Program-made: the position numbers and the translations under genes | Source: Ehretia macrophylla | Lineage: Eukaryota; Streptophyta; Magnoliopsida; Boraginales; Ehretiaceae | Reading direction: 5' to 3' | Assembly: GCA_037974665.1 (NCBI GenBank) | Contig: CM075782.1 | Coordinates: 46,795,351-46,859,350 of the forward strand | DNA length: 64,000 nt | The notes under the pieces: model-generated | What the model saw: the letters and a program-made list of their open reading frames with translations, nothing else | Told to the model about the DNA's origin: nothing | Databases searched by the model: none | In this document: positions 3,101 to 63,466 of the stretch, one piece after another | Numbering within the stretch: position 1 is the first letter of the stretch | Layout: each line of letters starts with the position of its first letter

Positions 3101-6100
3101 CACTTACTCTATCAGTTATAAGCATTCCGGTATGGAATTTTATAATTTATTCTTTAGTACGTACATATGTCTAGTTTCCTTGGGAGATGATATGGCGATT
3201 AAAAACTGATTACACGTATCCACTAACTATTGTTCATTAGTCTTCGACTGTTTCCCTGGAAAACTATAAATGTATGGATCATCAGCAAGATTTTTCTGTA
3301 AAAAGTTACATACCTAACTTAAAGACTGACTGATGGTCAGTGGAGAGGGCCATGAGATCCATATACCCCAAACTTTGCATGTTAAAAAAGAGCTGTCTCT
3401 GACACCGTCTTCTCTGGAAATGTCTCGTGCATGCAGAATGATGGACTGTAAAAAGTCAGGAAGCCTAGCCAGGTGCATCTGAAAGAAAAGTATAGCTTTA
3501 TCTAGATGCATTGGGGCTCAGACAGAAATCAAATTCATGTAAAAGAAAACAAGTGAAATGTTTTATATCATGCTGGGTCATCTAGGATGATTGTTATTAG
3601 AGAGAGAACTAGTGACTGTTTTGAGCTTAAGCATTCAAGAAGTGACATTTTTTATATCCCTTATTTATTTGATTTGTGTCAACTTTACTATATATTTTCA
3701 TCGTTCCTCTCTAAACTTAACTATACATGCTTCCCAGTTTCTTCTCTAGTTGATTACTTGTCTACTTTGCTGGGTGAAGAAGTGCTAGATTTAGTATGTA
3801 ATCAACGAATTGAAATGGTTACTTTGAGATTTTCTCATCCTATAACATTTTCACTTAGATTTTCTCATCCTATAACATCTTATTGTATGCAATCCTACGT
3901 GTTCTATCCTGAAAGTGCCATTATTATTTCTATACACAATAGCTGTACTTTGTCTAATCCTAACTCATAACAGGAGCTCTTGTTACTTGGATGCATTTCA
4001 AGCAGATGGAGTACTGTAATTGAATGTTTTATGTCAAGTTCTTACCAATCTCTTCCGGTCTCAAAGTTATATGAGGAAGTGCAAAACGTGCCATTTGAAA
4101 AATTCCAAAACCTTTCTTCCAAAGAGCAGATGATGGATGCAAAAGTATGTTATATTATTATATTGTTTATCCACTGATTAGTCATGAGATTTCTGCTATA
4201 TGATACTAATTGCATGTCTGTGCAATATCGTAGTTCCATTTCCACTGGTTCGTTATTATGATGGTAATTTTCAACACAACACATATTATTGCTTTATTAT
4301 GAGAAACCTCTTTCCATATCATATGCCGCATTGGTAATTTAAATAATCTGACGTCTCCCAACTATTAATGTGGGGAAAATATCAGTGGATATATGTGCTG
4401 TTTCTCTAGATCTTTTCTGTATCTATCGTCGCATTTATTGACCTCTTCCTCCGAGTGTACTTTGCCTCCTGGTACATGGCTTCTCTTAGTAATTTGCCAA
4501 ATCCTGGTACATGGCTTCTCTTAGTAATTTTCCAAATTGTACGTTTCTCTTACTAGGAAAAAGAAATCCTGGAGTATCTGGAAGTATTTTTGGGCAATAA
4601 ACTTCATCACGTGTGGAACCTATCTCCAGTACTTGCAGCAATCTCAGTTCCTTCCTGGTAAAGTTCAGTCTCTGGACGATTATTGTGAATTCACTGGATA
4701 TTGAGGAAGTGCATTGTATTTTACTGAGGATAAGACAAATTTCATGGTGTTTTGGTTACATCAATGAATAATGCGGGTTTGTGCAGTTTGTTACCCCGCC
4801 TTCAACCACATGCATCCTGCTACCCCTATCGTTCGTCTTAATTTTACCTCCTTAAACATCTTATGATAATCAATCACCAAATTTGTGAAAAGCAAATATG
4901 GGTCTATATTTTGTAGGTCACAGTTGTTCAGATCATATCTCCAAGAGCTAGAGAGCCAACTGAGAGGAGAGCCTTCAACTACTAGGTCTTCAGTTTTCTC
5001 ATCCTCTATCGTTGTCTTGTAAAATTGAACCTTTTTTGCTTCCTACTGAAGCATGTTTACCATTGATAATACTCGTTCCATCTTTATGCAGATGCTGTAA
5101 TTGTGTTGTGGACAGGAAGGAGCATATAGAATGTGGGTACAAATCATTGCTTTCCATTTCTCATCCGTGTCCTATCCTTGTTGTGTTTCATGTCTTTTCA
5201 ACATATTTTGCATGTGTCGAGATTAATTCTCTTCTTGTTTTCTTCTCTAGTTTCTAGCAGCTTCTTTACCTGATAATGTGTATTAGCTTCTTGCCCTATT
5301 GTTTGGCAGAAATGGTAAAGAATAACGCAATAGAATAAGAAACAAGTAGATCAAATATGGATGGTAGCAACTATAAAGGCCGTTATTCTTTCTGCCAGAA
5401 ATAGAATAAAATCTCCAAAAAAATATAAAAAACCCCTGATCTTATTACCATTTGATCCCTAATTGAGTCGATGTCAAACTACCCTAATTACCCTCCCACT
5501 GACATTAAAGGACCTCCCTGCCCCAATGCTCTCCGCCCGGGAGAAATTAGATGCAGGCATTGTACTCTCTATAGTCGTGTAAAAGATTATACAAGCTCTT
5601 GGTTTTAGGAATATTCTGCTTCATTTGATACTTCCCAACTGCTGTGCTTTATTCAAATTTCTATTCAATGAATACTGTCTGAGAGGAAACCAGTTGATCT
5701 TAAAGATCTCATTTTTACATTAGCTTGTTGGATTGACGGCCTTGATTAATGATAGATTTTTTCAAGTGCCAAATGATTGTAATCTGATTCACTTTCTGCA
5801 CCTAATCCTACATTTACTTTCAAGCTTGGCGCTCAAATAGAGAATACAGTCAACTTGCTCTACGAGGTCTTCTCTTAAGGATTTCATATTTTCTTTGTCC
5901 TCAGATGTTGTCCAATGGTAGACAACCCAAAGTTCGTTCTCATTTTCTCATAAGTAATGGGGAATTGCATGACATTACAAAGCATTAGGAAGTAGCGTGT
6001 AGCGACCCTTTTACTGAAGTCAAAAGTTTCTTGTTCTACATCTGTGTAAGGAATTTCCCTGTTTTAGTTTAGTTTTCAGAATGCGTATCAATTGCCTTGA

Positions 6101-10650: not shown

Positions 10651-11052
10651 ATGAAGGCATATGCTGTTGCACTCATTATTTGCGGCTCCATAGCTGCGAT
10701 ATTTTTGTGCTGTCTCTACAACGATTCACGCAACAAGAAGAAGAAGAAGACGACGACTAAAACAGCTTCTACTACAAAGAGCTTTGCTGCAACTCCTCCA
10801 GTACAGCAATCTTATGGTGATGATATCGAAAAGGGCAAAGAGGGCAAGAAAGATGGGGACATGGTGATCTTAGCGGGTGCAGGTGCTGCTGTAGCTGCCA
10901 CGGCTGTTACTGCTGCGGTATTGACTAGAAATCAAAGTGATAACAAAACTACTAGTGGTGGTGATTCTGGTGGCCGTGGCACTACTCAAGGTTGCTGTTG
11001 TGGTGGTGATGGTGATGGTGGAGGTGGTGGCTGTGGTGGTTGCGGTGGTTGA
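10651..11052 (+). CDS. Gly/Cys-rich small membrane-type protein, copy 1
   Basis: Single exon, 133 aa. The N-terminal hydrophobic segment (about residues 3-23, with a CC pair at its end) suggests a signal anchor. It is followed by a lysine run (KKKKK), a Thr/Ser/Lys-rich linker, a charged part with EKGKEGKKDG, a second Ala/Gly/Val-rich hydrophobic stretch (about residues 71-91) and a Gly/Cys tail ending GGCGGCGG. The start is supported by the TATA box 62 bp upstream and by agreement with copy 2. I do not recognise a named family; it is not the CYSTM pattern. Function is unknown; a wall- or membrane-associated or metal-binding role can only be guessed from the Cys/Gly tail. A CACTA element begins 35 bp after the stop codon. 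Confidence 0.75.
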   Translation: MKAYAVALIICGSIAAIFLCCLYNDSRNKKKKKTTTKTASTTKSFAATPPVQQSYGDDIEKGKEGKKDGDMVILAGAGAAVAATAVTAAVLTRNQSDNKTTSGGDSGGRGTTQGCCCGGDGDGGGGGCGGCGG

Positions 11053-11077
11053 TATTTGGCATGCATGCTTCGACATG
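10993..11077 (+). repeat. 85-bp direct repeat, left copy (gene end)
   Basis: Covers the last 20 codons of Gly/Cys-rich copy 1 and 25 bp of 3' flank. An identical 85-bp copy lies at 16313-16397, at the right edge of the CACTA element. This is the original copy because it continues upstream into the intact gene. Confidence 0.95.
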
Positions 11078-11278
11078 GCATCTACTCACTACAAAAAAGC
11101 TGAGCATAGGCGGCACAAATTAGGCGGCGCTTCAACAAGCGCCGCTAAAAATACTATTAGATGAGGTCTTTTGCGGCGCTTTAGTAAAGCGCCGTTTATA
11201 CTTCTAAAACAAGGGCGCTTTAGACAAACCGCCGTCAATTTATGACTGGTATTTAGCGGGAAAAAATCCCGCCACTAT

Positions 11279-11399
11279 GGCTGGGATAAAGACGGCGCTT
11301 TAGAGAAAGCGCCGGCTACGGATGGGATAAAGACGGCGCTTTAGAGAAAGCGCCGGCTATGGCTGGGATAAAGACGGCGCTTTAGAGAAAGCGCCGGCA
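11279..11399. repeat. Subterminal 41-bp tandem repeats of the CACTA element
   Basis: Three units of 41 bp starting at 11279, 11320 and 11361, nearly identical. Each holds a short hairpin, GGCGCTTT-agag-AAAGCGCC. More diverged GCGCC motifs extend from 11120 to 11560. In the En/Spm family such subterminal repeats bind the TnpA protein; the exact binding motif here is inference. Confidence 0.85.
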
Positions 11400-12070
11400 T
11401 ACCCTAGGACAAATAGCGGCATTTTTATAAAGCGCCGCAATATGGTGTTATAAAAAGCGGCATTTTTCTATAGGCGTCGTTATAGTTCTTTCAAAACCAG
11501 CACTTTTGTAGAAGCGCCGGGTTTTATTCATATAAAGCGGCAGTTTTTGTGAAACGCCGGCATAGGTGTTCTATATATACCCACCCAGATTGCAGCCACT
11601 CGCAGAAAACACTATCCCCACCAATCATCTCCATCCTCTGCTTCTTCCAGGTTCATTTCAACTCGTTTTTACTTGTATGTACATATATATAAGCATGTAT
11701 ATTTGTATTTGTCTATTTGATTCTTATTTTTTGTGTATGTATAATCATAATATATATATATATATACATATACATGTGTATGTATATATACACATATGCA
11801 CATATGCACATATGTATCTGCCCTCATAAGAACTAGATAATATATGATTGTTATCATCATTATATATATTTATTACACATATTTATGAATTTTAATTTGG
11901 TAATAGTCCTTCATACATTTAAATTACATGTCATTATCTATGAATGTTATTGTCACTTTGTTTTCTCAAATAATTAGTTGTTTCATCCAATTATTGAAAA
12001 AGAAAAGAAAAGGAAATTTATTGACATTTATTTATTTTTTTGTTTCATCTTACAATAGCACAATCCATCG

Positions 12071-15000
12071 ATGGATAAAAGTTGGATTACGAAGCCAAGA
12101 TATAGCATTGAATATATTAATGGAGTAGATAACTTTCTTGATTTTGCATTTACTCATAATTCAAGGACAAAGATCTTGTGCCCTTGTATTCGGTGCGTCA
12201 ATTGTTTATTCCAATCTCGGCACATAGTGAAAGAACATTTAGTATGTCATGGAATGATCAGTGGGTATACTAAATGGATTTATCATGGAGAAATTGTTAG
12301 AAATAGAGATGCACCACCTCTTGTTGATATGGAACCATCAATCAACAATTCACTTGAAAATCATAATAATATGAATGATTTAGTGAGGGATGCTTTCGGA
12401 ATTCATGATAGATCATATTTCGTAAATGAAAGTTTAGAGGGTGAAGAAATAAATGAAGATGAGGATGAGGATGAGGATGAGGATGATGTTGATATTGATA
12501 TTGATATTGATATTGAGGTTGAGCAACACAATCAATCTGAAAATGTACCTAATGAAGAAGCTTCAAAATTTTATAAGTTTCTTGAGGAATGCAACCAAGA
12601 TTTCTATCCTGGTTCCAAATCAACAATATTGTCATTCACAGTCGAGTTAATGCACTTAAAATGCGATAACAAATGGACTAAGAAGTCAGTTGATAGACTT
12701 CTTGAATTCTTGAAAAACCATTTTCCACAATCGAGAATGCCTAAATCTTGTTATGAAGCAAAGAAGATGACAAATGCATTAGGCCTCAAGTATGAAAAGA
12801 TTCATGTATGCCCAAATAATTGTATGTTGTATAGGGGTGTTAGAGCATCGCAACAATCTTGTCATGTTTGTAATACATCTCGATGGCAAGAAGACAATGA
12901 GGATAATGGAAGATGTATGAAAAAAAAGACAGCTGCTAAAATTATGAGATATTTTCCTTTGGTACCAAGGCTTCAAAGGTTGTACATGTCTTCGAAAACA
13001 TCTTGTTCAATGAGGTGGCATGACGAGGGTCGCACAAAGGATGGACTTTTAAGGCATCCCGCAGATTCGTCAGTGTGGAAGGATTTTGATTATCGATATC
13101 CCAGTTTTGCTTCTGATCCTCGAAATGTGAGACTTGGATTAGCCAGTGATGGTTTTAATCCTTTTGGATTGATGAGTAATGCGTACAGCATATGGCCTGT
13201 AATATTGATTCCGTACAATTTACCCCCGTGGATATGCATGAAACAATCTTCATTTATTTTGTCAATGATCATCCCAGGAAAAGAGTCTCCCGAAAATAAA
13301 ATAGATATTTTCCTTCAACCTCTTATTGAAGAGTTACAGCAATTGTGGGAAGGGATAGAAACATATGATGCAACAAGTAAACAAAATTTTTTGATGCGGG
13401 CTGCATTGATGTGGACCATAAATGACTTTCCTGCATATGCTTGTTTATCAGGTTGGAGCACTAAAGGAAAATATGCTTGTCCATGTTGTGTAGATAAGAC
13501 GCAATCAAGGTGGTTAAAACATGGGGGCAAATTTTGCTATTTAGGGCACCGTCGTTGGTTAAGTGATTCACACAGGTTTCGTGCACAAAAACAGTACTTT
13601 GATGGGACAGAGGAACGAGGAATGGAACCTAAGACATTATCTGGGTCAGATGTGATAAGGCAGTTAGAAGGGGTTAGTTTCATTGATGAGTATACGATAA
13701 ATACGAGGAATGAGGCAACTACTTCTAAAAGAAAGAGAACAAGAGTTACAAGTATTGAAGATGATTGTTTAGATGATCAACATATGGAGGGGGGTGACAA
13801 TCATGTTAGTGAGTTAGCGTTTTGGAAAAAGAAAAGTATCTTTTTTAAATTACCTTATTGGGAGTTCAATACATTGCGCCATAATCTTGATGTCATGCAT
13901 ATTGAGAAAAATGTTTGTGAAAATGTACTTGGAACATTGTTAAACATCAAAGGAAAGAGCAAAGATGATTCAAAAGCACGACATGACTTGGAGGACATGG
14001 ATATAAGGCCACAACTTCAACCTGTGAAGTTATCTAATGGAAAAGAGTTTTTCCCTCCTGCATGCTATTCGATGACTAAGAAAGAAAAAGATGTATTTCT
14101 GAAGGTGCTGAAACATGTGAAAGTGCCTGATTCATATGCATCAAATATATCAAGGGGTATTAATATTAAGGAAAGAAAATTACATTCTCTCAAGACCCAT
14201 GATTATCATATCTTGATGCAAGACCTACTTCCTGTTGCATTGCGCTCATCTATGACCAAACAAGTAACAAAACTTATAATTGAATTGAGTAGCATTTTCA
14301 AGGCCATATGCTCTAAGACAGTCAATGTTGAAGAAATGGAAAAGGTGAAGTCTCGTGCAGCATTATTGTTATGCCACATGGAGAGATGTTTTCCTCCTTC
14401 ATTTTTCACTATCATGGTTCATTTGGTCATTCACCTTGCTGATGAGGTAAAGGTTGCAGGTCCAGTTCAATTTAGATGGATGTACCCAATTGAAAGGTAA
14501 TTTTTTCATATTTAATTACTCAATAACAATTTTTTTTTTTTGACTTTATGTAATTATCTTTCACATCTTGTAGGTGCTTGAAAATATTTAAAAAGTATGT
14601 TGGCAATAAAGCCTCTCCAGAAGGTTCAATTGCTGAGGGTTATATTGCACAAGAGTGTCTCACCTTTTGTTCAAGATATTTTGATGGCATAGAGACCATG
14701 TTTAATCGGCCACGCCGAAATGATGACATTGATCATGTAGAAAGAGAAAAATATTTGCTTTCTAGTGGTGGCAAAGCCATTGGAGCACCTGAGATTAAAG
14801 ATTTGGATGATTTATCATTGGTGCAAGCACACAGATATGTTTTGCTACATATTGATGAAATAAAACCATATGTTGAGTGAGTCATTTGTTCTACCACCTT
14901 TAATGCATTTATATATTTACAATGGCCTTATACATATGATAATGAGTAATAACATTTGTTAATTTTGTGCAGAGAATTTAAGAGATACAAGATTCAAAAG

Positions 15001-15844
15001 TACCGCCCAAAAAGATATGGTACTAATTCAAGCGTATTGCAAAAGTTGGTGGTACAGGAATTTCATATATGGTTCAAGATCCATGTAAGTATATATTTCT
15101 AAATTATTTCCAATTGGTATTGTGACTAAAATCTTATTTTATTAAAAAAATTGAATAATATAGGTATCGAACATGGGCCATAGAGACGTATCAGATAAAA
15201 TAAGATGGCTTTCTATGGGTCCTTTTAAAACTACAAAAAGATTTAAAGGCTTTATTCACAACGGTATAAAGTTTCATACCAAAGATTGGAATAGGGGGAA
15301 AAGAACACAAAATTATGGAGTTGTTTTGACATCAATGACACCAAGCGTTGCTTCTGCCCGAGATCCAAATCTCATTGAAGGAGAAATTGAGTATTTTGGT
15401 GAACTTACAGATGTAATTGAATTGGATTATTCTGGACATTTAAAGGTTGTGGTTTTCCGATGTAATTGGGCTGATGTAACACAAGACAGAGGAGTCAAGA
15501 AAGATGAACTTGGATTTACACTGGTTAATTTCACACGATTGTCACATACAGGGGAACACATTACTCATGAGCCATTTGTTATATCGTCTCAAGTTCGGCA
15601 AGCTTTTTATGTACAAGATCCTTTGTATCCAGAATGACAAGTTGTGATAAAAACAATTCCTAGAGATGTGTTTAATCTTGGTGATGAGGTTATATCAACT
15701 GTTGTTGATGATGATGATGATATTAGTGATGCTACTTTCTCTGCTAGGAGTGCTCCTCATGCCCATCAAGAGTTGGAAGAGAGTGATTGGCTACGAAATG
15801 ATGTTACTGAAGATTTGTTGAGTGATTTTGTGCAACAAATATAA
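12071..15844 (+). CDS. CACTA transposase (TnpD type), one nonsense codon
   Basis: Four exons by frame and splice sites: 12071-14496, 14574-14876, 14973-15084 and 15164-15844. The N terminus (MDKSWI, CPCIRCVNC) is the transposase-associated zinc-binding domain. An acidic tract (DEDEDED then DIDIDID) around residue 130-150 is coded by microsatellite-like DNA. The middle (RWHDEGR, ASDGFNPFG, YNLPPW) is the Transposase_21 domain, followed by DUF4218 (VHLADEVKVAGPVQFRWMYP, crossing the first intron at ER-C) and DUF4216 (WNRGKRTQNYGV, EIEYFGEL). In the last exon a TGA at 15635-15637 follows DPLYPE, where relatives have a tryptophan; the frame is open again to the TAA at 15842. Otherwise the gene looks complete, so inactivation is recent. 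Confidence 0.85.
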
Positions 15845-16312
15845 GGAGATTGCTTGTGTCAACAAATTACATACTAGAAGACATGTCATCAAGGTATACT
15901 GGTAAACACTATAGCTTTTCATGTTTTTCTTTTTGGTTTTTCGTTTCACTTTTTGGGCATTTTTCCTTTTCTCTCCATTTGTTATATCTTGAGATTGCTA
16001 TATCTTGAGATTAATTGCTGTATTGCACGAAAGGAATTTTGAAAATGCCCCAGATTATCTGTATCCCAGCTCTCACTAAGTAATTGTAGTCGCTTATTCC
16101 TCTTTTTAACATGTTTCAGGAGGAGCTGAGGTTGATCCCCAGGTATTAGTTGTAGAGGGAAGTGAGGAGGTTCATATTGAGCCATTGCCTTGAGTTGTTG
16201 CGTAGCTTGTTTGATTGTTGAGGTTGGCTTGCTTGGATGGCTTGTGTGAAGATTATGTTACTGTTGTGTATATGTTCTATTTTGAGACCCTGGGTGGTCT
16301 TGTATGTATTTG

Positions 16313-16397
16313 TGCTGTTGTGGTGGTGATGGTGATGGTGGAGGTGGTGGCTGTGGTGGTTGCGGTGGTTGATATTTGGCATGCATGCTTCGACATG
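16313..16397 (+). repeat. 85-bp direct repeat, right copy (filler)
   Basis: Exact copy of 10993-11077, placed where the right inverted repeat of the CACTA element should be. It is followed by T and then ACTTGCTTC, which continues the interrupted host sequence as judged from the paralogous flank after copy 2 (CACTTGCTGCTTC at 20309). Confidence 0.9.
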
Positions 16398-16850
16398 TAC
16401 TTGCTTCTATATATGTGTGTATATATATATGGGTATGTATAGACACACGTTTCCTCATTACAAAATGTATATATATAAACGTTTAATTTCTTGATCATGT
16501 AGAACATCTTGTCAATGAAATAACGTTAATCGTTCGAGTGTTGTTATATATATATATATATTTTCAGTAAATTTTTACCATATAAGTGAAAAAAAATTTA
16601 ATACATGTTTTTAAGTATTTAAAAAGGAATAAAACATAACTTGAGTGATTTAAAAAGGAATTTTAATTACTCAATAATTTTTAACACTAAGAAATTTGTG
16701 GCAAACGAAAATGGTTTGGAAATACGTGAATGGCACTATGGTATTTAACTCTAAATGTGTAACAAGCTTTACTTGGGTCACCAATAAACTGAACAAAAGG
16801 GACGTCTACACTATAATTAATACTATATATGCCAAATATGTGAATAATTC
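16398..16850. other. Resumed 3' flank of Gly/Cys-rich copy 1
   Basis: Continues the sequence interrupted by the CACTA element. It resembles the region after copy 2 (for example CACAAAATGTATATAT and CTTGATCATGTA phrases at 16458-16500 and 20435-20470). Holds AT microsatellites and no gene. Confidence 0.6.
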
Positions 16851-19833: not shown

Positions 19834-20277
19834 ATGAAGGCATATGCTATTGCACTCATTGTTTGCGGCTCCATAGCTGCAATAATACTATTTTTGTGCT
19901 GTCTCTACAACGATTCACGCAACAAGAAGAAGAAGAAGACGACGACTAAAACAGGTTCTACTACAAAGAGCTTCGCTGCAACTCCTCCACAGCAGGCTTA
20001 TGGTGATATTGAAAAAGGCAAAGAGAGCAAGAAAGATGGGAACATGGTGATCTTAGCCGGTGCAGGTGCTGCTGTAGCTGCCACGGCCGTGACTGCTGCG
20101 GTTGTGACTACTACTATTGAAAGTGATCGTGAGCGTGATAATAGAACTAGTAGTGGTGGTTGTGGTGGTGCTGGTGCTGGTGGCGGGGATGGCGGTGACG
20201 GTGGCGGCGGTGGATGTGGTGGCTGCGGTGGGTGTGGTGGTTGTGGGGGTGGGGGTTGTGGAGGTTGTGGGGGTTGA
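19834..20277 (+). CDS. Gly/Cys-rich small membrane-type protein, copy 2
   Basis: Single exon, 147 aa, and the most complete family member. The layout matches copy 1: MKAYAIALIVCGSIAAIILF hydrophobic N terminus, CC, KKKKK, a Ser/Thr/Lys linker (STTKSFAATPP), EKGKESKKDG, a second hydrophobic segment (ILAGAGAAVAATAVTAAVVT), then a long Gly tail with regularly spaced Cys (GCGGCGG units) reaching the stop. It is longer than copy 1 mainly through the Gly/Cys tail. Promoter and 3' flank are shared with copy 1. Function is unknown. Confidence 0.75.
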   Translation: MKAYAIALIVCGSIAAIILFLCCLYNDSRNKKKKKTTTKTGSTTKSFAATPPQQAYGDIEKGKESKKDGNMVILAGAGAAVAATAVTAAVVTTTIESDRERDNRTSSGGCGGAGAGGGDGGDGGGGGCGGCGGCGGCGGGGCGGCGG

Positions 20278-21449
20278 TATTTTGCATGCATGCTTCGACA
20301 TGGGATCCCACTTGCTGCTTCCTAGCTATTGGGTGCAATCTATTATCCTCATGCTGGTGGATATATTTTACGTGTTTGTTTTCTTCTGTAATTTTAAGGT
20401 TCTTGTATAATGAAGTTCTCTTAAGTTTCTTCATCACAAAATGTATATATAATAACGTTTCTTGATCATGTATAAGATCTTGTCAATGAAATTATGTTAA
20501 GTATTCATGTTATATACTACGTACAATAGTAAATTTTTTTCCATATAATAAGTGAAAAAAAATTCAATTCATAAATTCCAATCATTTAGAAAAGAGTGAA
20601 ATGTAACTCGAGTGACATAAATTATTATTTTAATTAATATATAATTTTTTTAGTACTAAGACACATTTTAGCACATCAGAATGGTTTTCAAAGTGAATCA
20701 TAATCTTCTCTTAACTAATAATTTATTCAAATTAAACATTTTAACTTGTATATATCAGCCATTCAATTCATCCACCAAAAATACTTGTTTTTTTTTTCTT
20801 CTATTTTTGTAATTTAAAAATCAAATGAATGGTTGTGATGTAATAGTAAAATGTTAGAAAAAAGTATCAGTTAGGAGAGGGGCAGATTTCCAATTAGGAT
20901 TTCAGTTTCAGCACGCATTAATCCAGCACATATTGCAGAAATCTTGTATTTAGTTATAAGAATTCATAATGGAATATCTTTTCCTTGCTTTATTTACTTT
21001 ACTTTTATTTACCATAACTTCGGTTAAGAGCAGTTGTACTGTAATCAGATAGTTACTTTTTTTTAAAAGCAAAAATATAATTAGGATCATCTCTTGATAC
21101 AAAACAAATTTTAAGAAATTAAACAAGTTTATGTGTGATATCTATATGGACCTTGTTATTTCTACAAATTACAAAGATATAGCATAATGTAAAAAGCACA
21201 AACCCGTATCAGGTCACTTCTGAATAGCTAGAAACAGAAAAGACTTCAATTTTCATGCATATAGAATTTATTCCTCTTTTTATAATTTCATTTCCAATTC
21301 AAAAAGAAAATATATAATTCTTTTACAACACTTTCATTTGTAATTTTATCCAATTTTAAAAAGAGTATGTCTCCTCCTTTTGTTTTTTATATAACTCTAT
21401 ATTTTCCTTTCCTTTATTATCCTTCACCTTATCCTTTACCCTACCAGAT
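20278..21449. other. 3' flank and AT-rich spacer
   Basis: Contains the 3' UTR of copy 2 and AT-rich DNA. No further gene or clear repeat was seen. Confidence 0.5.
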
Positions 21450-23604: not shown

Positions 23605-23850
23605 ATGCTATGTTGGTGCTGTTTCTGCAATGATTCCCGCAAGAAGAAGGGGAAGAAGATGATGATGAAGAAGAAGAATAAAACAGCTTCTATTATAAGG
23701 AGCAATACCGGTAAAGGCAAAGAGAGCAAGAAAGATGGAAACATGGCCATCTTAGCGGATGCTGCTAGCCATGGCACCACTGCTCAAGGCTGTTGTTGTG
23801 GTGGTGGTCACGGTGGTGGCTGCGGTGGGTGTGGTGGTTGCGGGGGTTAA
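23605..23850 (+). pseudogene. Gly/Cys-rich protein, copy 3, N terminus lost
   Basis: The frame from ATG 23605 gives 81 aa: MLCWCCFCNDSRKKKGKK, then KGKESKKDGNMAILADAAS and a Gly/Cys tail ending GGCGGCGGCGG. The ancestral ATG (23577) is still present but now out of frame, because the sequence between it and the AATGAT codons is 23 bp shorter than in copy 2. Both hydrophobic segments are missing or shortened. It could be translated from the inner ATG as a soluble Cys-rich peptide, or be a pseudogene. Confidence 0.6.
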
Positions 23851-25460: not shown

Positions 25461-25960
25461 CGTTATTAACATGAAACTCTGCCACAACAGCAACGCTCAA
25501 AGTAGCCTATCACTGCACTTCTATTATCAAATTTTCTCAAAGGTATATACAATTCTTCTCTTTTCAATTATATTTTCATTATGCACGGATTGTGCACAGT
25601 AGATACGTGACACGCAATATTTTACGTGGTTCATCTAATTCTGGCTACATCCATAGAGTAATTTCACTATTATCCAATATTTCTGACTTTTTGTATGGAT
25701 AAAATCTAAATTTAAACATTCCTTACGTGACTTTATGTAGAGAAAAACTCCAAAATTCTCATTGTATGAATATTCTCTCACTTTCGCCCTGAAGTAGGAT
25801 GACCTCACAACTCTCACTTGACTATTATGACTGGACCTAACTTACCTGTTCGAGCCCGATAGATTAATCGACTATACTGATTCCAGATCTATCCATTCTA
25901 GTAAATAGATTACTACCGTCATCTAATACGCTATAATTTTGAATCTCTCTCGCTGATCCG

Positions 25961-26117
25961 TAGGGAGAACGCGGTTTCTTTTTGTTTGTTGTCATTTTGG
26001 GCACCCCCCCGCCCCCCCCCCCCCCCCCCCTCCCGGCCGCGGCCTTCTCATTTTCCAATCCCAAAAGTCTACTAAAAGTGTAGCGGGAACGCGGTTTCTT
26101 TTTGTTTGTTGTCATTT

Positions 26118-26154
<37 letters not shown>

Positions 26155-26388
26155 GCTGCGGCCTTCTCATTTTCCAATCCCAAAAGTCTGCTAAAAGTGT
26201 AGCGGGAACGCGGTTTCTTTTTGTTTGTTATCATTTTGGGCCGCATTGATAGCCTCTACTCGTGTCCTAGCTCATCGGAGAGCTAGATTTGTCTCAATTG
26301 TTTGTCTCTTTCCTTCAGCTTTTCTCAAATTAGCTTCCGCTATTTCAAGAGCTTCTCATTTTCCAATCCCAAAAGTCTACTAAAAGTG
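25961..26388. repeat. Three tandem ~120-190 bp units with poly-C cores
   Basis: Units start at 25961, 26081 and 26200 with AACGCGGTTTCTTTTTG and end with TTCTCATTTTCCAATCCC plus AAAAGTCTACTAAAAGTG. In units 1 and 2 the core is a C homopolymer of roughly 20-30 bases. In unit 3 the core is ordinary sequence of about 110 bp. The poly-C may be an assembly or base-calling artefact replacing the real core. Confidence 0.8.
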
Positions 26389-26461
26389 TAGCGTCCATAG
26401 CAACCACTCATGCATTATTCGAAAAAAGAATTCATGAAAGCACGGCTCTTTGGCTGCAACT

Positions 26462-26809
26462 ATGCTATTCTCGTGCTGCTTCCGCAATGATTACAGCAAG
26501 AAGAAGAATGAAACACCTTCTACTACAAGGTGCTTAGCTACATCTCCTCCACAGCAAGCTTACCCTGATATCGAAAATGGCAAAGAGAGCAAGAAAGATG
26601 GAGTAGTCATGGTCACAGAGAGCAAGAAAGATGGAGACACGGTTAAAGAGAACAAAAAAGATGGAAACATGGTCAAAGAGAACAAAAAAGATGGAAACAT
26701 GGTCATCTTGGACTATGCGGATGGAGCTACTCAATTAGGTTGTCTTTTTGGTGGTAGTGACGGTTGTGGTTGTGGTTGCGGTGGCTGTGGTGGTGGTTGC
26801 GGGGGTTAA
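26462..26809 (+). CDS. Gly/Cys-rich protein, copy 4, altered N terminus
   Basis: 115 aa from ATG 26462 (MLFSCCFRNDYSKKKNETPS). The ancestral ATG (26434) is out of frame through the same 23-bp net shortening as in copy 3. The linker RCLATSPPQQAYPDIENGKE is family-like. The KESKKDG motif is expanded to four units; the last two are a perfect 30-bp tandem repeat (26645-26674 and 26675-26704, KENKKDGNMV). The Gly/Cys tail (GCGCGCGGCGG) is kept. The usual promoter with its TATA box is replaced by the poly-C repeat block. Expression is doubtful. Confidence 0.6.
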   Translation: MLFSCCFRNDYSKKKNETPSTTRCLATSPPQQAYPDIENGKESKKDGVVMVTESKKDGDTVKENKKDGNMVKENKKDGNMVILDYADGATQLGCLFGGSDGCGCGCGGCGGGCGG

Positions 26810-41644: not shown

Positions 41645-44600
41645 ATGGCATCCAACCCCATGGCTGGCTTGTTCACTGGTTCTTCTCATGGCCGTGACGA
41701 TCTTCGTGTCGTGCATGGTGTCGATCATGAGGTGATTAATAATTCTTTTGCATGATTAATTTTTGTGTAAAGATTTCAAAGTTAGCACTGCCAACAAAAC
41801 AAGTGTCTCGTCTTGTTTCTTGATATTCTTATACGTGTTGGACGTGTTTTTATTTTTTTGTTTTTGGTGCAGCAACGCGCTCCAACGTATGATCATCAGT
41901 CTAGTAAGAAGATATGTCGAGTTTGTGGAGATGAGATTGGATTGAAGGAGAATGGTGAGGTGTTTGTGGCTTGTCATGAGTGTGGATTTCCAGTTTGCAG
42001 GCCTTGTTATGAGTATGAGAGAAGTGAAGGCAACCAGTGCTGTCCTCAGTGCCATGTTCGCTATAAGCGCCATAAAGGTTATTTCATCACTACTTTATCC
42101 GTTTACTTTTTTAATATTTTCTATATGATAAGCTTTTTATTATATACATGAGATATGTGACATTTAATACGGATAAACGAGTTGTATAAAACATTACGAT
42201 TGTAAATCTTCAAAATGGCCATACTAACATTAAAAGACTTGCATGTGCAGGATCTCCTAGAATTGAAGGGGATGATGAAGACACTTTTGATCATGATGAC
42301 TTTGAGGATGAGTTTCAGATCAAGAATCATCATGACAATCCAGATCATCAACCTTCGGTAAGTCAATATAAATAGACCATTTTTTTTTTTCAATCTACAA
42401 TGGAGACTGAACTCATAATTCGAGTTTAAAATCTCTTATTACATAGGTCACCATTTGTTTTTGCATCTCCCACCTTTTACCCATTCTATGCAAGAGGACA
42501 AAACATGGCCACCTAAAAACTAGCAAAAAAATTTCTGCAAAATTTTATCGAAATTACACGTTAGAGTTTAATCTAATGATGTCCTATAAAAATTATAAAA
42601 ATGTGACTCCCTATTCCTAATATTTACCAACACGAGATCTTTTGCGTATTCTTATAAAACATAGGAGAATAATTATATTACTATGATATCTTGAGATTTA
42701 GTGTGCAATTTCGGTGAAATACAACGAATTCTTTTGTAATTTACCCTTTATTGAAAATAAAATGGAGAAGTCTTTTTACTTGGAAGAATGAAAAAATTAA
42801 AGAAAATAAGATGGGCAATCCAAATCACAATTTACATGATGTTTTAATTTGCACATCAACTAACAATTAATTAACATTTCTCAAGTCCACAATTGTCTTC
42901 AAAAGTGTTAGTGTTAGTGTTAGATAGTAGTGACTTTTACAAATTGTGGTGCCTAATTAAATAGAAACAGTAGACAGCTGAGTGCAATTGGAACCATTTC
43001 ATATTAGTCATAATGACATTACTACAATATTAGTCATAATGACATTACTACAATATTTTATTTCTTTTGTAATAGTCGAATTAAATGATAAGAGAACTGT
43101 TAAGCTGTCGTCTTGTTGCAGCTTTTTTTTTTTTTAACTAAAACTATTTGCAAAGATTAAAAATTCTTTTATCACTTTTTGTTAATAATTATTCATGAGA
43201 TTATATTTTATCAACGATTTTAATATTATGAGTTAATTGCAACAATTTTTACACCTTTGATTATTATATATAAAAAAACGCTGCAATTGAAATTTTACAA
43301 CGAGAGCATATGTAATATATAATTAAAAGTATTTGCAAAGATTTTTAACCTTTTTGCAATAATTTAAATCGTTGTAATGGATTAATGATGTAACAGTGCA
43401 TTGAAACCAAAATTGTCTTTGGCAGGAGAATGGAGACTATAAACAGCAGCATTCACATACCAATGGTGCTGCTATTCCTTCAGTACCAGGAAGTGGTAAG
43501 CAAATCCTGACCATTTCCCCACGAGCTCTAGCTGATCAATATTATAAAACATTTCATTGCAAAATTGATTGCCTTCTCAATATAAACTATATGTGCAGTT
43601 GCAGGTAAGGATCTTGAAGATGAAAAAGAGACTTTTAGCAATGCAGAATGGAAAGAGAGAGTTGAGAAATGGAAAACCAGGCAAGAAAAGAGAGGTCTTG
43701 TCACCAAATTCGATGATGGAGGCAATGATCAAGATGATGATGATGAGTTTCTGTAAGATTTCATTCATGAAAGTTGTTATTCTCAATCAACATATCATTC
43801 ATATATGCACCATTAATGGAGAAAAGTTGATTGATAATACATTATACTCATTACACTTGATCATATGAAATCTATTCAAACCCAGACTGTTAAGATAATG
43901 TTAATGTAGTTATGTAGATATCAGATGCTCGAGCAGGCATTAACCTGCTCGAGCAAGTACAGAGCTGATGCTTTCTGCCATTTAGATGCTCAAGCAGTTA
44001 ATACTTGTTCAAGTAGGTTTAGAAAATGCTCGAGCAGGATTAATACTTGCGCGAGCAAGCTCAGAAGTTGTTGCTCTGCCGTTCAGATTCTTAAGTAGGT
44101 TAATACTTGCTCAAGCAGGTATTAACTGCTTGAGCATCTGAATGGGAAGAGCATCAACTCTCTACCTGCTCAAGCATCTGATATCTACATAACTAAATAA
44201 ACATCTGGTCCTGACTGTCGCCCCCACTCCATGTTAGAGAAGTGGACGTCCGTTAGTTGTTTGGAAGAATAACTCTTGATCATATTCTTTATGCTGACAT
44301 TACTTCATATTTTTCACTTCAGTATGGCTGAAGCTAGGCAACCCCTATGGCGAAAGGTTCCAATTTCATCAAGCTTGATCAGTCCATATCGCATTGTCAT
44401 TGTCCTCAGGCTTATCATTCTAGGCTTTTTCTTCCATTTTCGAATATTAACCCCGGCCAAGGATGCTTACCCTTTATGGCTCATCTCTGTCATCTGTGAA
44501 ATATGGTTTGGCATGTCCTGGATTCTTGATCAGTTCCCAAAATGGTGCCCAATCACGCGCGAAACTTACTTGGATCGCCTCACCCTGAGATTTGAGCGCG

Positions 44601-47600
44601 ATGGTGAGCCAAACCGTTTAGCTCCGGTTGATGTGTTTGTAAGTACTGTTGATCCTCTGAAGGAACCCCCTATCATCACTGCCAACACGGTTCTGTCAAT
44701 CTTGGCTGTTGATTACCCTGTTGATAAAGTGAGTTGCTATGTATCGGACGATGGTGCATCGATGCTTCTGTTCGATACATTGTCAGAAACTGCTGAATTT
44801 GCAAGGAGGTGGGTGCCATTTTGCAAGAAATACAGCATTGAGCCAAGAACTCCTGAGTTCTACTTCTCTGAGAAGATTGATTATCTGAAAGATAAGGTGC
44901 AGCCCACCTTTGTCAAGGATCGCAGAGCCATGAAGGTAAAAGCAGAAAAATGTTGCACAGAAGTGCACTTTATATATTACTCGTGGAGAATACACATATA
45001 TAGTGTACAATCTGCTAATTTTGTTCTGATCAATCTGAAATAATCACCTTACTGTTATGTCTTATGGTGCAAATTAGTATCGGGCTTAGGACTAAAATTA
45101 AAGAATGGTTGGGAATCTGAACAGGATTCTTTTTTGATTTATGACTAATCATTCCCATAGAATGGACCAGCCTACAAGAACAAAACAGTCCCTCCGTAAT
45201 CAGTCATTCATAATATCTGCTTGTCTAGGGTTGAGCCTTGGGATTTGACGTTACAGTTGCCCGTGATAGTGTAGTGATTCTATCCCTCATTTTTTGGCCT
45301 AAAAAGATAGCAACATGTAACTTTTCTTGATTCCTATGGTATATGTACAGGACTTGGATCCCTAAAAACATATACCATTATAAGATCGATCTAATAGTTG
45401 TGAATTGTTCATATTATTATGTCAGTAAATATATCATCAATTCATTATTGTTGAATCTTCCTTGTAATATTATAAGGTTAGTGTTCTTTGAAATTTGAGA
45501 ATGTTAAATGCAAGTTTCTCTTGTTTATGCAGAGGGAATATGAAGAGTTTAAAGTTAAAATCAATTCATTAGTGGCAAAGGCTCAGAAGAAGCCTGAAGA
45601 GGGATGGGTTATGCAAGATGGGACTCCATGGCCAGGGAATAACACAAGAGACCATCCTGGCATGATTCAGGTTCGTTGATATACTAGATTTGGATTCTCT
45701 CCTAAATACTATTGTCTTCGTTTGATTAGGAGTTGAAATTCTAATCATTCATCCCATATTGAATGGTTGAGATTGATAGAGAAGAAAACTTAGTGGCATT
45801 TGATGATGTATATCCCTCGAATCTATATCACCCAAATTTCACCTTTCTTGGCATCCTTATGTTAAGTATTACATGTAAATGAAACTCGTTTATTTGATGC
45901 CTTGACTTATGATATATAAGAGAGGGAGATTGGTACTGCTGATGTATATCACCCGAACTTGTATCACCCAAACTTCACCTTTTATTTTACATCATATGTG
46001 TCAAGTGTTACATGTAAATGAGACACGTTTGCATGATGGGTATATTTGACACATAAGAAGTGAAGAAAATGTGACATATAACAAGACATGTTAATGGAAT
46101 GCTAAATAGGTTTACCTGGGAAGCGAGGGGGCACTTGATGTAGAAGGCAAGGAGCTACCTCGGCTTGTCTATGTTTCTCGTGAGAAACGACCAGGCTATC
46201 AACATCACAAGAAAGCTGGTGCTATGAATGCCTTGGTAAGTATTTACTTACCCACTTTTAACTACTATGACATTAACAGAGTTAGATTCCCTCGTAATGT
46301 TATAACGTGAAATTGACGTTTGTATCTTCAATGTGATCATTCAGGTTCGAGTGTCTGCTGTGCTCACCAATGCACCCTTCATGTTGAACTTGGATTGTGA
46401 TCACTACATTAACAACAGCAAGGCTGTTAGAGAAGCCATGTGCTTTCTAATGGATCCTCAAGTTGGAAAGAAGCTCTGCTATGTCCAGTTTCCACAGAGA
46501 TTTGATGGTATTGATCGTCACGATAGATATGCCAATCGTAACGTGGTGTTCTTTGATGTAAGTTGCACTATTTCATTTCATTTCTTGGGATAAATTACAA
46601 AAAAAAATCATGTTTTGTCAAAATTGCATGTTAATTCCAGTGTTTTACCATAATAGTTCAATAGAATCTACAGAACTAACATGGACACAAGGAAAGTGAG
46701 TCACATTCTTATAGATTATAGGGGTCATTATACGATTTCAATATACAAGGTCTTACGTCTTCAATAACACGGTAAAAATTTTTACACTTCACCCTCTTTT
46801 CATGCCAACTAAACATGCACATAAGAGGGAATAAATTGTTGAGAAAAATGGGTGGTGCATAGCAACGCTCGTTTAAACCCCTCGAGTCTGTTCTTATGTA
46901 TTACAACAGTGTAAAATTTATTGGGTTAATTCTACTTTATGTAACAGATCAACATGAAAGGGCTAGATGGCCTCCAAGGACCTGTATATGTTGGCACAGG
47001 CTGTGTCTTCAATAGGCCGGCATTGTATGGCTATGATCCACCGGCATCCGAGAAGCGGCCGAAGATGACCTGTGACTGCTGGCCAAGGTGGTGCTGTTGC
47101 TGCTGTGGTGGTTCAAGAAAACCGAAATCCAAGTCCAAGAAGAAGGGGCTTAAGGCTTTGTTTGGCATCGGAGGATTGTATTCAAAGAAGAAGAAGATGA
47201 TGGGGAAGAACTACTCAAGAAAATCATCATCTGCACCACTCTTTGATCTTGAAGAGATTGAAGAAGGCCTTGAAGGGTACGATGAGCTTGAGAAGTCATC
47301 TCTCATGTCCCAGAAGAACTTCGAAAAACGGTTTGGACAGTCTCCTGTTTTCATTGCTTCTACTCTCATGGAAGATGGTGGCCTTCCTGAAGGGACTAAT
47401 TCGACATCACTTATCAAAGAAGCCATTCATGTTATCAGTTGTGGATACGAGGAGAAAACTGAGTGGGGCAAAGAGGTAAGTAGCAAGTACCATCCAGTTT
47501 ATAGTATCTTTAACACGCTCCTCACGTGCAGATATCATAATTGAATGGTAGCGACTTATTTAAGAAACTAGCCGAGCTAGGCTCAGTCAAGCAATTCCAG

Positions 47601-48778
47601 AAGATATATGTATATGAATAAATTGGACTTCTATCTATCGAATTAAGCTTTTAGATGAGGCACTCAAACAAATATTCCTAATGGACGTGCAGCATGCGGA
47701 CTGTTTTGTTTATTGTCTCTGTAAGCTGACTTCTGATGGATTTGCTTTGTTTACAGATTGGATGGATTTATGGTTCGGTTACAGAAGACATTTTGACAGG
47801 CTTCAAAATGCATTGTCGAGGTTGGAGGTCAGTGTACTGCACACCAAAGAGACCGGCGTTTAAGGGATCAGCCCCAATCAATCTGTCAGACAGGTTGCAT
47901 CAAGTTCTGCGATGGGCTCTTGGTTCTGTTGAAATTTTCCTCAGTCGCCATTGTCCACTGTGGTATGCCTATGGAGGCAAGCTCAAGTTGCTGGAGAGGC
48001 TCGCCTATATTAACACCGTGGTTTACCCTTTCACTTCTATAGCTCTATTGGCCTACTGCACACTCCCTGCCGTGTGTCTTCTCACTGGAAAATTTATCGT
48101 CCCAACTGTAAGTACTAATACAGTGAGCCAATATTTGTAGTCTTGCACCATCTTTTCAATTCGGCCATTGAGACTTAATCTGAACTCTTTGTGCAGCTGA
48201 ACAATTTTGCTAGCATATGGTTCATGGCCCTGTTTCTCTCCATCATATTGACAAGTGTGCTTGAGCTCCGATGGAGTGGAGTTAGCATTGAGGACTGGTG
48301 GCGTAATGAGCAATTTTGGGTGATTGGAGGTGTGTCAGCACATCTATTTGCAGTCTTCCAAGGCCTTCTCAAGGTTCTTGCTGGAGTAGACACAAACTTC
48401 ACTGTGACAGCAAAAGCAGCGGAGGATTCTGAGTTTGGGGAACTCTACCTTTTCAAATGGACTACTCTGCTCATCCCACCAACAACACTGATAATACTAA
48501 ACATAGTTGGTGTTGTGGCTGGAGTTGCGGGTGCCATTAACAATGGCTATGGCTCATGGGGTCCTCTCTTCGGAAAGCTATTCTTTGCCTTCTGGGTGAT
48601 TGTTCACCTCTATCCTTTCCTCAAAGGTTTGATGGGAAGGCAAAACAGGACCCCCACCATTGTCGTCCTCTGGTCTGTTCTTTTAGCTTCAATCTTCTCA
48701 TTGGTTTGGGTTCGGATTGATCCTTTCTTGCCCAAGCAAACAGGACCTATACTTAAACAATGTGGAGTGGATTGCTAA
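41645..48778 (+). CDS. CESA4: Cellulose synthase catalytic subunit, CESA4 (IRX5) type
   Basis: Twelve exons: 41645-41731, 41873-42077, 42251-42357, 43426-43495, 43599-43752, 44323-44935, 45533-45670, 46110-46235, 46345-46557, 46948-47475, 47757-48107 and 48197-48778; phases agree and give 1057 aa (Arabidopsis CESA4 is 1049, from memory). N-terminal RING-type zinc finger ([29 protein letters not shown]). Two membrane helices follow [11 protein letters not shown]. The GT2 catalytic core holds [22 protein letters not shown] and QVLRW, the D,D,D,QxxRW residues. The class-specific region contains a Cys cluster (WCCCCCGG) and Lys-rich linker. Six C-terminal helices end [16 protein letters not shown], and the terminus LKQCGVDC is typical of CESA4. 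It polymerises UDP-glucose into cellulose in the plasma-membrane rosette with CESA7 and CESA8 in secondary walls. Part of its last exon is duplicated at 55.9 kb. Confidence 0.95.
43003..43054. repeat. Perfect 26-bp tandem repeat in CESA4 intron 3
   Basis: Two identical units, 43003-43028 and 43029-43054, starting ATTAGTCATAATGACATTAC. Probably a recent slippage. Confidence 0.9.
43909..44193. mobile_element. Foldback MITE in CESA4 intron 5
   Basis: 285 bp with terminal inverted repeats GTTATGTAGATATCAGATGC and its complement, flanked by TA on both sides (43907-43908 and 44194-44195), as in Tc1/Mariner-type MITEs. The interior is built from recurring near-palindromes of TGCTCGAGCAGG/CCTGCTCAAGCA and TTAATACTTG units in both orientations, so several hairpins are possible. 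It occupies much of the intron between exons 5 and 6, and the flanking splice sites look intact. Confidence 0.75.
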
Positions 48779-49415
48779 TTGTACTCCTCATTTCCTGAAG
48801 TCTATGGTTGTTATCGATTTTTGCCAATTTTGCAAGCTTTTCTCTTTTGTTGCAAGTTAATATACATATTGTATGTGATCTGTTATAGAACATTAACCAG
48901 CATGTCCACAACAAAAGGAGAAACAAAAACCACTAGCATGTATTCGTTTGCCGAATGTAAGAGCTGTAAGATGCCTTTGATTGAACACTAAGGAAAGATT
49001 TCTATTATGTACTTCTTTGAAAGTTATCAATCAAGACATCAAATTGATTGTGTGCTTCCCTCACTGATCTTTAACCTTAGTATGAGTGATTATTGACACT
49101 ATGTTAAATTATTTCACTGTATGGTTCATGTTTCCGGTTGAACAAGAACTTAGTCATCAGTATCTGTTGGCTCAGCAACCCATACTTATCATCGAAAAGG
49201 TATAACAAATGCTTCCCTTTGCATTGAGGAGACAATATACATCTTGTTTGATTATCTATATTTCGAATCTCTAAAATGAGGGTGATATCTTCATTGAAAA
49301 GGTGTAGCTGGCTGTACATTCAAAGTATAATCTGTGCTAAGGCTAGAAATACATTTGCAACTCACGATACAACTTTTCAGCAAAATTATAAATTAAACAA
49401 CTAGTTCATATTTTT

Positions 49416-52400
49416 CTATTTCTGAAAACTAGTTAACTTGCTTACTTTTATTGTTCCCAATGGTTCGGCAAGGTGCGCCTGAGTTCGGGCAGATAGTTCT
49501 TGCGCAACAGAACGCATGGTAGGTCTGGACTCTGGGTTGGTGCGTGTGCACGCTAATGCCACTGTGACTACAAATACCACTTCTTCTGCTAATCGGCCTA
49601 TGGGAGGTAACAGTCGCTGATCAAGCATATCTTTCAAAAGAATATCTGAATCACTGGGCAACTTTGGTTCGTTCATTGAAGATGATAATGAAGATAGAAG
49701 CTCGCCCGGGTGCCTTCCCATCATAACTTCTAGTGCCACCACACCAAAGCTATAAACATCACACTTCTCCGTCACTCGCATGGTAAGAGCAAGTTCTACA
49801 TGTGAACAATAGAAGAACAATTAGTTCAAATATTCCTGGTCGAAATAACAACACAACAGAAAAAAGATTCAGCTCAATCTAAACAATATTTGTCTGCAAA
49901 ATACTGTAATGCACTTCATTTAATGAGAATTATCTCCTGCTTGATTATTGCAAGCATGTGGAAAACTGTAAAACATTATCCTTTCCTTCCCTAGAGTTTC
50001 TGTGAACTCGTAATTCTTACAAGTTCTCACAAGAAAATGAGATAATCAAAAGATGCATAATTAAATAGTTTAAGTACCTGGAGCTATATATCCATAAGAG
50101 CCAGCAACTGTAGTCCAATTTGATGTATTTGAAATCAGAAGTCTTGCCGTGCCAAAATCTGAGAGTCGTGGCTCGTATTCCATTTCAAGCAGAATATTGT
50201 TCAGTGTTACATCCCGGTGGACAATAGGCGGAGAGCAGTCATGGTGCAAGTAAGCAAGTGCATGAGCCACTCCTTGCACAATTCTCACCCTTGTACCCCA
50301 GACCAGTTCCATTGCATCCTGATCATCATACAGAACTTTCCCTAAGCTGCCTCTTTCAACATATTCATAGACCAAGTACAAACACCCATTCTTAGAACAA
50401 AAACCGTAGAGCTTAATGATATTCCTATGGCGTACTTCTGTCAGAGTCCGGATCTCATTCTCAAAACTGCGGCGATTTGTCAATGGAATGTCACTAGAGT
50501 CGGACATGTTGAGTTTTTTAACAGCCACAATTTGTCCAGTTGTCAATAATGCTCTGTAGACACTTCCAAATCCTCCTCTTCCAATGCAGTACTTCTCGTC
50601 GAAACCTTCAGTTGCTTTGGAAATATCCCCAAATGTAAATTTTCCTTCTCTTTCCCAAATCAGAGATTCAGAATATTCATATTTGTCCGAACTTATAGTC
50701 TCTGCATCGTGCTGCTTGGATTTTCTTCGAAGGACAAGACATCCAACAATAATGCTGAACAAAACTATGAGGCTGACGACCGGAACAATGATAGCAATTA
50801 GAACCTTTTTTCTGTTGCTCTCTGAATTCTCAGCTGTCGAAGTCACTGCACATGTTGATAATCCTTCTGTATTCCCACACAAACCAAAATTGCCAATATA
50901 TGGGTTTCCTGGTGCTCGTTGGAATATGCTACCACTAGGAATAGGTCCAGACAACTCATTGTAGGAGAAATCAATAACACGTAAACTAACCATGTCAGAA
51001 AATCCCGAGGGAATTCTACCTGAAAGAAAATTATGTGACAAATTGAGAATTTCTAATGAAGTAAGCTTTCCCAAACTGGGGGGAATGCTCCCTGAAAGAG
51101 AATTGTTACTAAGATCCAAAAGATACTGTAAACCTTGTAAATTTCCAAGTTCAGGTGGGATCAACCCTGACAAAATGTTGTTGCCCAAGTTCAAGCTCAA
51201 CAAGGTCTCACAATTGCCAAGCTCTTTTGGTATCATCCCTGTGAAATTGTTTGTCGACAAATCAAGGGATTGGAGCTGCACTAAGCTGCCAACATTCTGG
51301 GGAATCTTTCCTGTTAAATGATTGTTGCTCAGATTGAGATTGAACAACTTGCCTAGATTGCCGAGTTCTGCAGGGACTTCACCTGTCAATTCATTTGAGT
51401 CCAACCTTAGGACCCGCAACTGTGTCAAATTCCCTAGCTCAGATGGGATCTCACCAGAGATTCTATTTCTGTCCATCTGAAGATTTGAAAGCTTCTCAAA
51501 TTGTTCCCACTCAAGCGTGAGTTGCCCTGTAAAATTGTTCCCACTAAGAGAGAGGAATACAAGGTCTGGATGAATTCCAAATGCCTCTGAAATATTCCCA
51601 GAGAATTGATTCTCTTCAAGCCTTACTCTAGATAACCTCGAGCAGTTCTTGAAACAACTCGGCAATGGCCCTGTGAAATTGTTCCCATTCGCTGTGAACT
51701 GCTGAAGAGCAAGTCCACTACATAATTCAGCGGGCAGTTCACCAGAAAAGCTATTGTTCGAAAAGCTAACATTCCTCAAGGAAGGAATGTTTTTACCAAG
51801 ATCACTTGGTACATTGCCGGAAAAGCTATTAGTATATAGAGAGAGAACTTCCAGACTACTGAGATTGGAAATACTATCAGGCAACTCTCCACTCAACTGA
51901 TTGGTGTTAATATCAAGTATCAAAAGTGAGGTTAAATTTCCAATCTCAGGTGGAATTCTTCCATTGAGATTGTTGGAGAAAAGTTGTAGAACCTGAAGAT
52001 TTGTCAGATTGCCAACTGTAGGAGGTATCGGACCTGAAAGATTGTTCCCTGAAAGATCCAGACTACCCAAATTTTGCAAGTTTCCAATCTCCGGGGGAAT
52101 GGGGCCTGAGAAGTGATTATTGTACAAGAATAGAAAATTCAGGTTGGTCAGTAGGCCGATTTCAGATGGAATTCGCCCCGTGAAAGAATTGTTTTGAACC
52201 TGAAGTGATGTTAATTCAGTCCAATTTGTGATGAAATCAGGGAAGATCTCACCAGAAAGGGAATTATCAGATAAACCCAAGTCAGACAATCTGGTAAAAT
52301 TTGATAGTGATCTTGGCAATTCTCCAGTAAGCGAATTCTGGGCTAGAGCCAAGTAGGTGAGATTCTTGCATCGGCCAAGCTCAAAAGGAATTGAAGAATT

Positions 52401-55917: not shown

Positions 55918-56123
55918 GGTGATTGGAGGTGTGTGTGTCAGCACATGATCTGTTTGCAGTCTTCCAAGGCCTTCTCAAGGTTCTTGCTGGAGTAGACACA
56001 AACTTCACTGTGACAGCAAAAGCAGCAGAGCTTCTTGTTATCGATTTTTGCCAATTTTGCAAGCTTTTCTCTTTTGTTGCAAGTGAATATACATACTGTA
56101 TGCGATCTATGATAGAACATTAA
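55917..56123 (+). pseudogene. Truncated CESA4 3'-end fragment
   Basis: From GGGTGATTGGAGG onward it matches the last CESA4 exon (48318-48423; [19 protein letters not shown] encoded), with a 4-bp GTGT insertion early on. It then jumps at about 56031 to sequence equal to 48805 onward in the CESA4 3' UTR, an internal deletion of about 376 bp. It has no start, catalytic part or membrane helices and is the left edge of duplication unit 2. Confidence 0.92.
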
Positions 56124-62323: not shown

Positions 62324-62341
62324 AAAAGACTTGTCTCTTTC

Positions 62342-63070: not shown

Positions 63071-63466
63071 AAAAGACTTGTCTCTTTCTAATTGTTTTTC
63101 TTTGATTTTTTATGCATATTTTGATAAATTTTATGTGTATTATAGTATTTTCTTAATACATGTGTGTATATATTCTGAAGTACACAAGCATGCATGTGTA
63201 TATATATAATTGGTAATTGATTTTTCATTCATAAATTCATTTATGTGTACTTTTCTCACACACACATAAAAAAACATATATATATATCCAAACTATTTTT
63301 TCTTTTCATTATAAATAATATGTAGTTATGTTTATTGTATCTGTATGTATGTGTTCCATAAGTTGGTTAAGAGACATTAATTATAGTTTTAAGTTACCTG
63401 GTTTTTACAAACAATTATCACATATATATACATATACATATATACATAGAGAGAGAGAGACGCACA

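Follow-up and report, generated by a model that had tools for sequence, protein, structure and literature searches.

The window analysed here comprises 64,000 nucleotides of Ehretia macrophylla DNA (GCA_037974665.1, CM075782.1:46,795,351-46,859,350, forward strand), contains no N, and includes a cluster of four related, short Gly/Cys-rich ORFs of 133, 147, 81, and 119 amino acids, located at (i) 10651-11052, (ii) 19834-20277, (iii) 23605-23850, and (iv) 26450-26809, respectively, the third and fourth lacking, in the ORF list, the ATG and the initial part seen in the first and second. The first of these, gene 1 (10651-11052), is the host gene whose end is duplicated, and its 133-residue product displays no Pfam match at E ≤ 0.01. 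Gene 1, both copies of its duplicated end, its downstream flank, and all element segments described below are read on the + strand. Also within the cluster, at 25960-26238, a 119-bp unit occurs 2.3 times in tandem and carries poly-C runs of up to 33 C, an arrangement that could be either biological or a sequencing artefact. Elsewhere, the window displays ORFs in pieces at 44276-48778, which we take to resemble a cellulose synthase catalytic subunit, and a tandem segmental duplication (about 48300-55400 and 56000-63900; for the most part ~7.2 kb apart, with 81-99% similarity between blocks) carrying two 1110-residue ORFs that look like LRR receptor kinases; within this duplication, 1,028 bp are exactly repeated (51949 = 59181), which may reflect gene conversion.

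Comparison within the window discloses that positions 10993-11077 and 16313-16397 are identical at 85 of 85 sites, as an earlier, sequence-only reading of this DNA had claimed. The left copy (10993-11077) starts in frame and takes in the final 19 codons of gene 1, its stop codon, and the next 25 bp, in agreement with its earlier assignment to the end of this gene, and is found in the context ...GGT, the 85 bp, GCATCTACT, and CACTACAAAAAA. The right copy (16313-16397) is preceded by ...TATTTG and followed by T, ACT, and TGCTTC, its position directly before T and ACT (16398-16401) being likewise as first described. Codons for Gly and Cys abound in the first 60 bp of the repeat but not in the remaining 25 bp; the second copy, with no start codon of its own, is probably inert. 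An own-genome search with the 85-bp query, from which simple repeats were left out, returned 21 matches, 20 candidates being scored, and found the full 85 bp at 100% identity only at these two places, so that the exact repeat is not attributable to chance. Among the matches listed, the second-best scorer is the neighbouring paralogue in the cluster, at 84% over 79 bp, and shorter G-rich pieces of the query reach 90% over 40-49 bp. The window holds 46 maximal exact direct repeats that measure 40 bp or more; this one is fifteenth in length, and the fourteen that exceed it are all part of the tandem duplication (48-63 kb). The inserted and duplicated DNA, 5.3 kb altogether, begins 34 bp after the stop codon of gene 1, and the original downstream flank of the gene (16402-16700), collinear with that of paralogue 2, resumes on its far side.

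A CACTA element without its right end

The DNA between the two copies consists essentially of a CACTA element reduced to its left 5,226 bp (11087-16312); the nearest relative extends over ~16.4 kb. The left terminus, CACTACAAAAAA, starts with CACTA at 11087, directly after the left target-site duplication ACT (11084-11086), which is separated from the left 85-bp copy by GCATCT (11078-11083), a stretch that the paralogues retain. The terminus is followed by GCGCCG-type subterminal repeats (11087-11570, terminus included; 11.1-11.6 kb), the same motif being present at the right ends of two relatives. The first long transposase exon (12071-14500) encodes (i) Transpos_assoc (Pfam E 1.8e-22), (ii) Transposase_21 (E 1.8e-99), which identifies a tnp2-type transposase, and (iii) the start of DUF4218 (E 2.6e-25). 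DUF4218 continues at 14578-14880 (E 1.3e-17; profile positions 68-113, the first part covering 1-64), presumably after an intron, and a DUF4216 segment follows at 15173-15637 (E 4.1e-20), closed in the ORF list by an in-frame stop at 15635-15637. Inspection by eye of six relatives at this stop site revealed an open frame in three (L013, L017, L019), a stop in two (L015, L018), and an interruption by another repeat in one (L012). Rfam returned no match at gathering scores.

The 3-bp duplication is present as ACT at 11084-11086 and again at 16399-16401, two relatives having 3-bp duplications as well, with 85 bp plus T separating the right ACT from the element. The right end is absent, and with it the inverted repeat that would be expected at both termini; the window copy is accordingly filed as a truncated relic of a CACTA family whose other copies have both ends. 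Two complete relatives in the same genome, with both ends read, define what is missing: C1:58900370-58916732 (16,363 bp, duplication CAA/CAA) and C16:65408625-65425401 (16,777 bp, duplication GAA/GAA), both of which read CACTACAGGAAATG at the right end, inwards. The window copy is 99.0% identical to the former over element bp 1-2072 and 98.8% over bp 3263-5226, and about 97.5% identical to the latter where compared. By comparison with these relatives, ~11.1 kb and the right end, that is, the right two thirds of the element, are absent from the window copy. The T at 16398 is no remnant of that end, since both complete relatives have G (TAGTG) before the duplication.

A left-end search of the genome, in which a terminus was counted if the match starts at query base 1 or 2, gave 36 CACTA left termini among the matches listed, the window included. 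For 28 of the 36, a right-end match lies on the same strand within 40 kb, again among the matches listed; 26 of these right ends extend to the last 1-2 bases, and two, both on C13, stop 60 bp short. The pairing used 35 of 52 right-end match rows, the omitted ones comprising 13 second pieces of the same copies and four weak, distant matches, none near any unpaired left end. The window copy is among the eight termini with no right-end match. The right-end query was taken from a relative, and both searches score best candidates only, so that an unpaired left end is no proof of an absent right end.

Three of the seven other unpaired left ends were compared with the window as positive control, and a repeat of the left flank was found downstream of none of the three in the stretches covered (1.5-kb flank); among the copies compared, right-end loss with flank duplication is thus not seen to be a family-wide property. 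The copy on C20 is homologous to ~1.1 kb short of the right end and then continues into sequence that looks by eye like the nested repeat described below, the C1:65.18 copy loses homology earlier than the C20 copy, and the C1:28.24 copy is collinear up to the end of the stretch covered and is thus still inside the element there.

Between the element and its closest relative, 39 of 4,034 sites differ (0.97%); with rates of 1.3e-8 to 6.5e-9, this would correspond to about 0.4-0.75 million years. Under the assumption of a common source, this divergence caps the age of the insertion and therefore that of the truncation. The perfect identity of the two 85-bp copies, first read as the mark of a recent event, is weak in this respect: zero differences in 85 sites permit up to 3.5% divergence (95% upper bound) and have a probability of 0.44 at the 0.97% that separates the element from its nearest relative. 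The better evidence for a young event is the element itself, only about 1% away from that relative.

Junctions and the order of the empty site

The last part of the element, 15995-16312, belongs to a high-copy repeat that occupies the same place in the relatives (1629 first-look candidates, 40 scored); alignments of all six tested copies elsewhere start at 15994/15995. In the relatives, by eye, this nested repeat ends in ...GGGTCGGGGCGTGACA, which we take to be LTR-like, and it seems older than the spread of the CACTA family. A break at the edge of the nested repeat was considered and rejected: at least 10 relatives match the whole probe 15850-16312 among the matches scored, and all ten whole-probe relatives run unbroken past the point, going on after ...TATTTG with TGTTGTTT (TG-TTGTTT), whereas the window goes on with TGCTGTTGTGG (TG-CTGTTG), as gene 1 does. 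The junction thus falls inside the repeat and inside the element, and what is missing is therefore ~11.1 kb and not the inverted repeat alone. The proposal that the right copy sits in place of the CACTA right inverted repeat holds, in consequence, as regards the loss of the right end, and needs refinement as regards the extent of that loss and the position of the junction. The two sequences share a 2-bp microhomology, TG, at 16312/16313, which on its own is close to chance.

A break within a high-copy repeat, the hardest kind of sequence to assemble, is also where an assembler or gap closer could have joined an element-bearing haplotype to an empty or footprint-bearing one, and the structure is as expected from such a switch from the former to the latter. 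On the other hand, the window is free of N, a 2-bp overlap at the join is in our judgement not expected from a graph assembler, and the 85-bp search of 20 contigs revealed no second copy of the locus, unplaced haplotigs possibly lying outside these contigs. An assembly artefact is considered quite unlikely.

At the other side, the right flank starts with T and ACT (16398-16401). The left flank reads GACATGGCATCT ACT, and the right copy ends in ...GACATG, followed by TACTTGC. The flanks of the insertion, when joined (GACATGGCAT-CTACTTGCT), are collinear with GACATGGGATCCCACTTGCT of paralogue 2 at 20297-20316, which bears out the empty-site order described earlier for that paralogue. ACATGGGAT is likewise present in the two remaining paralogues, at 23857 and 26836, and its occurrence in three paralogues suggests that this stretch is ancestral. 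Set against this order, the right copy together with the right flank equals the empty site minus 5 bp, GCATC (11078-11082), located directly left of TACT; the paralogues and the left flank keep these bases and the right junction does not, which places the loss on the right copy. Between the end of the copied stretch and the insertion point 9 bp are left out, and the copy passes straight into the right flank.

Two simple arrangements do not accommodate these junctions. An insertion by one end only, its right end being cut at 16312, was rejected because 86 bp of host-like sequence separate the element from ACT. A long target-site duplication of 85-94 bp at a staggered break is less economical, since the left end of the element has a 3-bp duplication and the two copies differ by 5 bp.

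The location of gene 1 in a local cluster of four related ORFs raises a further alternative, in which two near-identical copies of gene 1 would have stood in tandem, with the element behind the first, and a plain deletion would have removed everything between a point within the element and the end of the second copy; the 2-bp microhomology would suit such an event, and excision would be unnecessary. Only 85 bp of the second copy would remain, leaving no further sequence of that copy to be recognized. The second copy would, however, need a coincidental loss of 5 bp exactly beside the insertion point of the other copy, and the deletion is regarded as very unlikely.

Proposed repair after excision and its alternatives

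The best explanation, to which we assign about an even chance, is repair after excision in which copying was interrupted and then resumed in an empty-like locus or in the left flank. The following evidence argues for it: (i) the right flank has its start at the target duplication, where the transposase cuts; (ii) the copy and the right flank together have the order of the empty site with a small loss; (iii) scars of comparable size are a common result of excision in rice (PMC4423477); and (iv) most left termini of the family (28 of the 36 listed) are paired, and that of the window copy is not. Against it count the loss of one element end, the shortness of the microhomology, which is near chance level, and the result that none of the three other unpaired left ends compared has a flank repeat in the stretches covered.

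In the sequence of steps envisaged, a complete element of ~16 kb would have inserted 34 bp past the gene 1 stop codon, with duplication of ACT, and the transposase, most likely as the trigger, would later have cut it out of one chromatid. The gap would then have been repaired by copying from the element-bearing chromatid, starting at the left and proceeding through 5,226 bp, until copying broke off inside the nested repeat and was taken up again at the TG microhomology, close to where gene 1 ends. The template used from there on would be an empty-like locus, namely an excised sister or homologue with a 5-bp footprint loss, or, as the less likely of the two, the left flank, in which case the copy would then have been joined to the right end of the cut. 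The truncation, the copy, the collinearity, the 5-bp loss, and the complete relatives are observed directly, whereas excision as the trigger, the identity of the template, and the order of the steps are inferred from them. The 5-bp loss appears compatible, from the bases at the site, with excision and sister-chromatid copying. A break inside the element, with no excision as trigger, is possible by analogy with animals, in which gap filling is judged to start mostly in this way (PMC8277862).

The nearest competitor to this repair scheme is ordinary filler DNA: the right end would have been broken, 85 bp of the left flank copied as filler, and the product joined to the right flank. Filler copied from near a break is well described in plants (PMC2686159, PMC4423477), 85 bp falls inside the length range reported in the latter, and the right flank begins at the duplication. 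The copy nevertheless ends 9 bp from the insertion point and is collinear into the right flank less 5 bp; random filler would have no need to end at that place, which by rough judgement lowers the likelihood of this reading about tenfold, and if the filler is random the collinearity with the empty site is a coincidence. Filler is therefore held to be unlikely, and a jump onto an empty or excised locus fits at least as well as filler taken from the left flank. This also decides how far the sequence-only reading of an abortive excision or gap repair, filled from the left flank, can be retained: the CACTA element, the lost right end, and the copied end of the host gene stand, and the class of event is plausible, but the named template is uncertain, the left flank being one option only, as the order of the copy is that of an empty or excised site. 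The narrower proposal that the second template was an already excised, footprint-bearing copy of the same locus on the sister or homologue is put forward tentatively, as a possibility of less than even probability.

Abortive, that is, interrupted, gap repair after excision was reportedly described for Ds by Rubin and Levy in 1997 and for MuDR by Hsia and Schnable in 1996, its classic products losing the middle and keeping both element ends. As in the window, the element is partly copied back before a switch at short homology, here with nearby copied DNA at the junction (the 85-bp copy and TG); in contrast, the window copy has not kept both ends with only the interior lost but has lost the right end and ~11.1 kb. 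Incomplete excision of Pack-CACTA with loss of one end was reportedly described by Catoni et al. in 2019, a case that shares with the window a CACTA element and the loss of one end at the original site but is said to display no host-flank copy at the lost end.

Among 94 rice excisions, eight were perfect, fillers measured 1-123 bp, and the mean flank deletion was about 18 bp (PMC4423477); the window resembles these scars in a filler within that range and a small flank loss, but retains 5.2 kb of an element that is gone from the rice sites. In animal DNA transposons, template switching during gap filling shows a median microhomology of 2 bp and often draws on sequence near the source, and its usual starting point is judged to be a break within the element and not excision; excision-triggered cases are expected to show large losses and breakpoints towards the ends, as the window copy does (PMC8277862). 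The animal Pack-TIRs of the same source resemble the window in the nearby copy and the ~2 bp of microhomology, but carry the filler between two retained element ends, with mostly small losses, unlike the window. The parts available of PMC8978399, PMC8903248, and PMC12312487 contain nothing decisive on the window structure, and no description of a CACTA element of exactly this structure was found in the literature searched, mostly papers outside subscription.

The event is a fresh example of known repair outcomes, namely abortive gap repair, filler DNA, and incomplete excision, error-prone repair after excision being an established broader idea. Cut-and-paste transposition requires both ends for normal excision, so that the product, devoid of its right terminus, should no longer be mobilised in the normal way as one unit. 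Gene 1 remains 5.3 kb away from its original 3' flank. If the template was an excised copy, the transposon would have been pinned by a switch onto its own excision scar, with the loss of its end and the duplication of the end of the host gene achieved in a single step. The locus offers a clear single-locus case of a cut-and-paste element immobilised while copying part of a host gene, and suggests that collinearity with the empty site may serve to distinguish random filler from a switch to an empty template.
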